Shown piece after piece: positions 10,955 to 21,641 of a stretch of 64,000 nucleotides of DNA (positions within the stretch are counted from its first letter, which is position 1; each line of letters starts with the position of its first letter). Origin of the DNA: Dyella amyloliquefaciens (GTDB taxonomy: Bacteria; Pseudomonadota; Gammaproteobacteria; Xanthomonadales; Rhodanobacteraceae); the NCBI RefSeq assembly GCF_004296575.1, contig NZ_SAYT01000003.1:186001-250000 (forward strand), given 5' to 3'. The notes beneath the pieces were generated by a model. The model searched no databases. It was not told the origin of the DNA and worked only from the letters and a program-made list of their open reading frames with translations. A program made the position numbers and the translations under genes.

Positions 10955-11222
10955 AGAGCCTGTTCAGTGTCTCCACGTGGCTCGCGCAGGGAGCTGTTTG
11001 CGCGCCAGCCAAGGAAGAACGATGGAGTGTATGTCGATACACGACGGAGTGATGACGCGGGATGGCGGGCAAACAGACCCTGCCCAAAGGGTTGATTACC
11101 GATGGCTGCCAGCGAGCGGCCCGCGGCTTGACCTGACGGCCAGTCAGGCGCGGCGCCACGGTCCGCTCGCTGGCAGCCATCGGTAGTCAACGCGAGCTAC
11201 GTGGAGACATTGAACAGGCTCT
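10955..11222. repeat. 268-nt structured element, copy 1
   Basis: The element is closed by 32-base terminal arms (10955-10986 and 11191-11222; 30 of 32 pair). Next to the right arm is a second stem of 28-base arms (11092-11119 with 11163-11190; 27 of 28 pair). Between 10987 and 11091 lies a third stem (10994-11007 with 11063-11076) that encloses the hairpin GTGTATGTCGATACAC (11027-11042). Together they predict a three-way junction. A second copy of exactly equal length and internal spacing is at 21374-21641: the loops are about 85% identical, while the 28-base stem differs at 10 positions that remain paired. It abuts the ribosome binding site of the DHA2 transporter gene. The transcribed strand is not known. 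Confidence 0.85.
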
Positions 11223-20235: not shown

Positions 20236-21387
20236 TCAAGCACCGGACACCGTCGCGACAGGGGAAGGGGAGGGTTGGACATCTTTCCAGCCACCGAACG
20301 GCGCGTCGGTGCGGTCGATCACGGCGCCGCCCAGGCAGGCTTCACCGTCATAGAACACCACCGACTGCCCCGGGGTCACCGCACGCTGCGGTTCGTCGAA
20401 CACTACCTCCAGGCCGTCATCGTGCACGAATACCTCGCAGGCCTGGTCGGCCTGGCGATAGCGCGTCTTGGCGGTGCAGCGGAAGCGAAGTGCCGGCGGT
20501 TCGCCGGCGACCCAGGTGGGTGGCTCGGCATGCAGTCGGCGTGAATACAGCCAATGGTTTTCGCCACCCTGGGCGACGTAAAGCACGTTGCCAGGCACGT
20601 CCTTGCCGACCACGTACCAGGCCTCGCCACTGGCGCCGTGGCGGCCGCCTATCCCTAAGCCGTTGCGCTGGCCCAGCGTGTAATACATGACGCCCTGGTG
20701 CTTGCCGACGGTCTCGCCTTCCGGCGTGCGCATCGGACCGGGCTGTGCAGGGATGTACTGCGCGAGGAAGCTGCGGAAATCGCGCTCGCCGATGAAGCAG
20801 ATGCCGGTGGAATCTTTCTTGGCGTGCGTGGGCAGCGCGGCGTCCTGGGCCATCCGGCGTACGTGCGACTTCTCGATCTCGCCCACCGGGAACAACGTGG
20901 CCGCCAGCTGCTCCTGGCCCAGCGCGTGCAGGAAGTAGGTCTGGTCCTTGGACGCATCGACAGCGCGCAGCAGGCGGTACTTGCCCTGGTGGAAATCGAC
21001 GCGGGCGTAGTGGCCCGTGGCGATCTTGTCGGCGCCCAGCGCGCGGGCCTCGTCGAGAAAAGTCTTGAACTTGATCTCGCGGTTGCACAGCACGTCGGGA
21101 TTCGGCGTGCGGCCGGCGCGGTATTCGGCGAGGAAGTGCTCGAACACGCCGTCCCAGTACGCCGCCGCGAAATTGCGGGCGTGAAACGGGATCCCAAGGC
21201 GCCCGCACACGGCCACGGCATCCTTGCGGTCGGCATCGGTGGTGCAGGGGCCGTCGCGGTCGTCTTCTTCCCAGTTCTGCATGAACAGGCCTTCGACCGT
21301 ATGGCCGGCCTGCTGCAGGAGCAGCGCCGCTACGGACGAGTCCACGCCGCCCGAGATGCCGAGCATCACCTTAAGAGCCCGCTTCAT
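20236..21387 (-). CDS. mnmA: tRNA 2-thiouridylase MnmA
   Basis: A 383-residue ATP-dependent enzyme that places sulfur on U34 of tRNA-Lys, -Glu and -Gln. The PP-loop is [11 protein letters not shown] (residues 10-20), the first catalytic Cys is in [12 protein letters not shown], and the second is in [13 protein letters not shown], which receives persulfide. The ATG at 21387 has AGGTGAAG just upstream, and both lie inside the left terminal arm of the structured element (21374-21405). The first residues MKRALK are therefore dictated by the element. A second in-frame ATG at residue 8 begins the conserved MLGISGG and could be the ancestral start. Confidence 0.93.
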
Positions 21388-21641
21388 GTCTTCACCTGGC
21401 TCGCGCCGGGAGCTGTTTGCTCGCCAGACCAGGAAGAACGAGGGCGTGTATGTCGATACACAACCGAGTGATGACGCAGGATGGGGAGCAAACAGACCCG
21501 GCCCACAGGGTTGGGCATCAGCGCCTGCCAGGAAGCGGCGCGCGGCTTGACCTGACCACCAGTCAGGCGCTGCGCCACGCTCCACTCCCTGGCAGGCGCT
21601 GATGCCCAACGCGAGCTAGGTGAAGACATGAAGCGGGCTCT
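21374..21641. repeat. 268-nt structured element, copy 2
   Basis: This is the second copy of the element at 10955-11222, in the same orientation and of the same length. Terminal arms are 21374-21405 and 21610-21641 (31 of 32 pair). The second stem is 21511-21538 with 21582-21609 (26 of 28 pair). The third stem is 21413-21426 with 21482-21495 and encloses GTGTATGTCGATACAC at 21446-21461. Its right end touches the stop codon of nudJ and its left arm includes the first codons of mnmA, so it fills the entire nudJ-mnmA junction of an otherwise conserved operon. As minus-strand RNA it would fold the mnmA ribosome binding site and start into the closing stem. Confidence 0.85.

Follow-up and report, generated by a model that had tools for sequence, protein, structure and literature searches.

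Dyads of inverted hairpin modules with IS5-type ends: a probable family of gene-less mobile elements in Dyella amyloliquefaciens and other Gammaproteobacteria

In the accessible parts of the published descriptions, MITEs and REP elements are the kinds closest to the element reported here (PMC10969869, PMC5896051, PMC2817692, PMC2267715). Bacterial MITEs (Correia, ERIC, QMITE1, Chunjie) are characterized there as short, multicopy and gene-less, with terminal inverted repeats and a short target duplication, and as intergenic units forming stable hairpins (PMC10969869, PMC5896051); REPs are characterized as short palindromes with a GT(A/G)G head (PMC2817692). The present element agrees with the MITEs in size (~268 bp), multicopy occurrence, lack of a protein gene, 32-nt inverted arms, target duplication (excess of TNA; YTAR context in bursts) and insertion polymorphism (empty sites 17/17 and 18/18); an autonomous IS with the same ends was found for the form of one genome, G023, only (two plasmid IS5). 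As far as the available descriptions of Correia, ERIC, QMITE1 and Chunjie go, it is set apart from them by the recurrence of module, architecture and length across many families of the class, with covariation; by inverted structured modules of opposite strand polarity; and by a terminal stem whose inner sequence is hypervariable yet paired. Like REP/BIME units, as these appear in the accessible part of the source, it is palindromic, intergenic and non-autonomous and consists of inverted hairpin pairs (PMC2817692); unlike REP/RAYT systems, it is ~268 bp long, has other ends and TNA/TA duplications, and is not tracked by Y1 transposases. With the IS5 family (PF13340 + PF01609) it shares TAGGGCGTGTCATCAAT-type ends and the Y|TA...TA|R context, 16-17 nt being identical with the G023 element, whereas the IS5 insertion sequences examined are 841-886 bp long (end search), code for a transposase and carry no hairpin module. 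The preferred reading (probability roughly 0.8) is that of a large gammaproteobacterial family of non-autonomous MITE-like elements of ~268 bp, built as a dyad of modules, moved by an IS5-type enzyme, keeping its folds strand by strand and having a putative role in RNA.

The window, i.e., the whole stretch of DNA analysed, comprises 64,000 nt of D. amyloliquefaciens (contig NZ_SAYT01000003.1, positions 186,001 to 250,000). The features of its two copies are as follows; R2 is a covariance model trained on left modules only.

10955-10986, no strand: copy 1, left arm of the terminal stem P1 (inverted repeat I1; pair counts by position)
10987-11083, + strand: copy 1, left hairpin module P2 (R2 match 10983-11094, +)
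11084-11091, no strand: copy 1, central mini hairpin CCCnnnGGG, common to both modules
11091-11191, - strand: copy 1, right hairpin P3, the second, inverted module (inverted repeat I2)
11191-11222, no strand: copy 1, right arm of the terminal stem P1 (inverted repeat; pair counts)
21374-21405, no strand: copy 2, left arm of P1
21406-21502, + strand: copy 2, left hairpin module P2 (R2 match 21402-21513, +, E 7e-23)
21503-21510, no strand: copy 2, central mini hairpin CCCnnnGGG
21499-21613, - strand: copy 2, right module P3 (match of the left-module-only model on the - strand, 39.5 bits, E 6.9e-7)
21610-21641, no strand: copy 2, right arm of P1

Copy 1 (10955-11222) and copy 2 (21374-21641) are each 268 nt long, in agreement with the preliminary description, and 81% identical overall. 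High identity of a 105-nt segment was reported there and is found again; the figure of about 85% is corrected to 88% (92/105). The remaining counts given for the stems were reproduced: 10 positions of the inner 28-nt arms are changed between the copies, and these arms are paired at 27/28 (copy 1) and 26/28 positions (copy 2); P1 has one or two non-Watson-Crick positions per copy, i.e., 30/32 Watson-Crick pairs and 2 G.T in copy 1, 31 and 1 G.T in copy 2. An extra small hairpin, CCCnnnGGG, absent from that description, lies between the two large ones; its CCC and GGGT are (nearly) invariant. When copy 2 was read against the fold of copy 1, compensated double changes were counted at 6 P1, 2 P2 and 10 P3 pairs. 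Folding z: copy 1, -19.5 (+) and -15.8 (-), 0/200 shuffles being as good on either strand; copy 2, -17.4 (+), 0/200 shuffles as good. In the P1 left arm of copy 1 the outer ~10 nt (AGAGCCTGTT) are conserved, and the inner part is hypervariable, yet paired. P2 of copy 1 contains a tandem G.A/A.G mismatch run (11014-11026 / 11043-11055) and the apical stem GTGTAT-GTCG-ATACAC; P3 is a long hypervariable stem with apical CCTGAC/GTCAGG. The ORFs overlapping the window copies are run-ins from neighbouring genes.

The element consists of two inverted hairpin modules of ~112 nt with the central CCCnnnGGG in common, closed by the terminal stem. In 33 of 34 distant loci (a chosen subset, 10 members of which supplied left modules for training, Xanthomonadaceae-like loci being left out) R2 matched the right module on the opposite strand; the left and right matches overlap by ~15 nt at CCCnnnGGG. 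The right half, reverse-complemented, resembles the left half with z 3.6-9.1 in 6/8 elements of distant families (2.5 and -0.8 in the others). In copy 1 no R2 match was observed on the - strand at E<=1. By virtue of the opposite-strand matches, what had been taken for a unique three-way-junction core resolves into two inverted modules, the mini hairpin and the closing stem; the core is a single hairpin module, of which the element contains a second, inverted copy.

Retrons have an msr-msd hairpin layout. A retron-like retroelement with this layout and without reverse transcriptase was considered, the closing arms, the short complex hairpin and the long variable hairpin of the element giving a superficial likeness. 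It was rejected when no RVT_1 match was obtained in the host genome and the dyad and the duplications then appeared; with dyad symmetry, IS5-type ends and duplications of TNA/TA it is extremely improbable.

The host genome holds 15 copies in place of the two first described (15 distinct places by BLAST, 15 covariance-model matches); one of them (L022) is devoid of the right hairpin. Within Dyella, BLAST matches were obtained in 19/20 genomes, the host included, those of G018 and G019 being ~35-nt fragments only. With R1, a covariance model of the left module, matches were found in 90/197 genomes of the family (17/26 genera) and 67/299 of the order (28/85 genera); with the broader R2, built partly from loci that R1 had found, in 64/369 genomes of the class (55/272 genera). 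The host genome is included in all three counts, and matches per genome refer to the best 19 (family), 12 (order) and 10 (class). Among the 80 loci listed from the 109 of a pattern scan are some of Dyella, Rhodanobacter, Luteimonas and an unclassified Rhodanobacteraceae bacterium; the complete genome G023 gave 24 model matches, of which 20 were retrieved and are nearly identical. Such a model search had been proposed in the preliminary description; it returned many more copies and more compensated changes, and neither of the outcomes named there as refuting (two copies only with no further compensated changes; a match to a described repeat or RNA family) arose. Window copy 1 gave no match in plasmid and phage collections; P3 of a distant element gave short matching stretches on two Azotobacter plasmids and one Halomonas plasmid; in viral contigs the end motif occurs in 18 stretches, both ends lying close together in 3.

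Of 57 elements (62 loci, order and class), 31 measure 266-271 bp and the others 193 to 307 bp, several of the latter having been trimmed by the end finder. The right hairpin is shortened or missing in L038, L098, L099, L102 and L022, L096, L097, L100, as if tips had been trimmed. A REP-like hairpin of ~46 nt (GCACGCGGGGAGGCGCCATGGATGGCGCCGGCTTTGAGGAGCGAGGA) was observed inside L092, L095, L101, L110 and L148, and a similar one in L094, at varied positions and in both orientations, the right hairpin sometimes being lost. Contigs L030, L103, L171, L177 and L193 (G015, Dyella sp. ASV24) break in the right hairpin at an apparent Nextera adapter, mostly followed by poly-G; draft assemblies may thus under-report the element.

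No Rfam family was matched at its cut-off by the sequences compared, 4 distant loci among them, which gave sub-threshold miRNA and lncRNA matches only; this accords with the earlier statement that no named family of this architecture was known. A literature search by topic and sequence words gave no description among the papers found, subscription papers being mostly outside reach. The element is probably a widespread and apparently undescribed variant of the MITEs that combines IS5-type ends with a pair of inverted structured modules; an RNA-level function is plausible.

The stems have evolved by compensated change. Both-side change was found at 15/32 pairs in alignment A1 (50 left cores; score 0.199 vs 0.017-0.035 when slid), at 29/35 pairs in A2 (32 diverse cores; 0.623 vs 0.07-0.15 when slid) and at 23/33 pairs in A3 (30 of 33 right modules and window copy 2). 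In 19 orthologous pairs (near-identical pairs skipped; species recurring among pairs) the double changes that keep pairing numbered 36 in P1 (6 expected), 21 in P2 (3.3) and 80 in P3 (17.5), and those that do not keep it 5, 6 and 13, respectively; on account of the species in common among these pairs, and of the kinship of the 110 copies compared below, the counts are not independent. With folds far beyond chance and many further compensated changes, the earlier proposal that selection (or copying) acts on the fold is upheld.

The two hairpins are of opposite strand polarity. Among 110 copies, P2 is more stable on the + strand in 108 and P3 on the - strand in 110, and P1 weakly favours + (69 to 35). 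Single changes in orthologs gave G.T:A.C ratios of 22:8 (P2), 11:53 (P3) and 14:15 (P1); Watson-Crick starting pairs were used because structure predictions made on one strand favour G.U on that strand. The consensus energy of A3 is -43.0 on the module's own strand vs -32.4 on the other. Of 57 elements from the order and class, 55 have a left hairpin that is more stable on +, a figure partly due to how the strand was chosen, and 45 a right hairpin that is more stable on -. Of the tandem G.A/A.G mismatches of P2, which read T.C on the other strand, three are nearly invariant in A1 and the fourth is variable. The preliminary description had met conflicting strand signals and left one active strand to be decided; the conflict arises because the left hairpin is built for + and the right one for -, and with two inverted modules there is no single answer.

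Paired stems could also be produced by neutral palindrome correction, replication slippage copying arm onto arm with no selection involved. P1 is what this process would leave: it is overwhelmingly Watson-Crick (3310/3520 cells in 110 copies), with mostly three or four pair types at its inner positions and G.T about as frequent as A.C except at position 25, and 15 of its 36 compensated doubles in orthologs are transversions. It leaves unexplained why the unpaired G.A runs of P2 are conserved, why G.T polarity is opposite in P2 and P3 and why the module persists across families, and as an account of the whole element it is considered somewhat unlikely.

The element is mobile. At locus 1 an empty site was found in 17/17 relatives with both neighbours readable (G015, contig edge, and G003, no ortholog, not counted), and at locus 2 in 18/18 readable relatives. 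Its target is duplicated: among 134 non-orthologous Dyella-type copies an exact 3-bp duplication (TTA, TAA or TGA) was found in 26, vs a mean of 10.4 and a maximum of 21 in 2000 shuffles; a duplication of TA only is present in 21/134 copies vs 18.4 by shuffling, i.e., with no excess, and neither TA nor TNA is duplicated in 87/134. In G023 the copies are preceded by C in 20/20 and followed by G in 19/20 cases (C|TA...TA|G); in three further genomes the context is mostly Y|TA...TA|R. Neither window copy has a perfect target duplication: none is intact at locus 1, and locus 2 is compatible with a TCA duplication in which one base has changed. Insertion without duplication, the first reading of both window loci, was withdrawn in view of the TNA excess in the 134 copies. 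Together with the IS5-type ends described below, the empty sites and target duplications bear out the mobile-element half of the earlier proposal; its other half, a new structured RNA, is plausible.

The terminal inverted repeat is AGAGCCTGTTC-like in Dyella and TAGGGCCTGTTAACACTA-like in other families. In G023 the elements have IS5-type ends (TAGGGCGTGTCATCAATCCC), and a 132-aa ORF from locus L389 is a truncated IS5-family transposase (PF13340, E 1.4e-9; PF01609, E 2.1e-5) with matches in 1856 plasmid records. The ends of five plasmid IS5 elements, out of the best 40 of the 1856 records, were examined: the two nearest by transposase, from plasmids of Psychrobacter and Leptolyngbya, respectively, show the terminal repeats TAGGGTGTGTCATCAATTAG/TAGGGCGTGTCATCAATTAA and TTAGAGCGTGTCATCAATT/TTAGGGCGTGTGATCAATT; the other three share the general end type only, e.g., TAGGGTCTGTTCCC in Pseudomonas avellanae; the hairpin module was observed in none of the five. 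The end-match survey of G023 yielded no intact autonomous element: 68 ends match with up to 2 mismatches, and each of the 40 that match perfectly has a partner <=270 nt off; of 7 unpaired ends inspected by eye most continue into decayed copies, and that of L389 does not; of 14 further unpaired ends two resemble decayed copies, and partners >500 nt away match only at 3 mismatches. In 2.1 Mb of loci around copies 22 end pairs lie 700-2600 nt apart, with no transposase ORF by eye; the odd-length copies have no far end partner; and Dyella-type ends were seen on no IS5 element among the elements and loci examined. Judged by the G023 ends and the broken transposase gene, the mover is likely an IS5-type enzyme, and the Dyella-form ends (AGAGCCTGTTC) would be served by the same type.

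A Y1 (PF01797)/RAYT single-strand mover was rejected, its presence not tracking the element: no PF01797 match was obtained in 10 element-bearing genomes (G001, G002, G003, G006, G010, G011, G012, G016, G067, G417), and PF01797 is present in 3 genomes without model matches (G014, G019, G048). The same result bears on the possibility that the structure serves transposition itself, the mover recognising each module in folded, single-stranded form (cruciform or ssDNA) with no role for the host, since Y1 is the single-strand transposase family. Module polarity symmetric about the element, like that of the two ends of a transposable unit, and the length of 266-271 bp in 31/57 elements across order and class speak for such a use; the terminal repeats and TNA/TA duplications indicate a DDE reaction on double-stranded DNA, the module is absent from IS5 elements that share the ends, and compensated changes arise in copies that stayed put as well. 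This explanation is rated rather unlikely.

Many copies lie in very short operon gaps. In relatives the stop of a nudix gene overlaps the mnmA start; in the window copy 2 sits between the two, and the TGA stop of the nudix gene, which lies upstream on the - strand, shares its final base with the right P1 arm. The copy itself may offer a replacement for the separated start: its left P1 arm reads, on the - strand, AGGTGAAGAC ATG AAG CGG GCT CT, possibly a ribosome site and start codon of mnmA. In a distant relative (L287, around 1450-1760) the terminal stem replaces the usual end sequence with what appears by eye to be the ribosome-binding site and start of rpmD.

Gene context was scored, by means of a crude gene caller based on codon usage, for the 123 copies out of 134 that have enough flank: 45/74 cases have a start codon at -20..25 nt from the left end, and 15/69 have one at this distance from the right end; tandem-gene orientations (45 vs 40) have no overall bias. 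A strong gene-orientation bias seen in 59 copies faded at 123, only the nearness of start codons staying skewed. This skew, crude as the caller is, and the candidate mnmA start site of copy 2 are compatible with a host-domesticated cis-regulatory RNA, spread through selection on the neighbouring gene; with few sites common to species (the 19 orthologous pairs, near-identical ones skipped) and both window sites private, such an origin is held to be improbable.

According to the preferred reading, that of a non-autonomous MITE-like family with a role in RNA, the element would be mobilised in trans by an IS5-family DDE transposase, as the end identity in one genome suggests and as may hold for Dyella, and would insert at YTAR or C-TNA-G-like sites with duplication of 2-3 bp (TA or TNA). 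Its module folds would be maintained strand by strand, left on + and right on -, and in a transcript crossing it from either side the first hairpin would be a correctly built module. The folded RNA may render insertion tolerable in or before operons in either orientation, e.g., through processing or reduced polarity. From this arrangement we infer an RNA-level role of the modules. That they form an orientation-independent RNA device, whose fold rather than sequence is preserved by selection across the class and lets the element live inside operons, is advanced tentatively, as a possibility of less than even standing. Against the preferred reading it may be held that arm-to-arm copying at the DNA level would make an RNA role unnecessary; that G023 yielded no intact autonomous element and no IS5 with Dyella-type ends was seen; that 87 of the 134 Dyella-type copies are without TA or TNA duplication, that TA by itself is in no excess and that neither window site is perfect; and that tandem-gene orientation is unbiased.

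If the preferred reading is right, scattered Gammaproteobacteria (64/369 sampled) bear an apparently undescribed gene-less mobile family with IS5-type ends, the interior fold of which has been preserved over very long times. The element would then be a rare natural case in which covariation can be traced both in copies staying at one site and in copies that moved, so that structure-driven and copying-driven pairing can be distinguished. It would also raise the question of how operon genes escape silencing when a structured insertion separates the stop codon of one from the start codon of the next.
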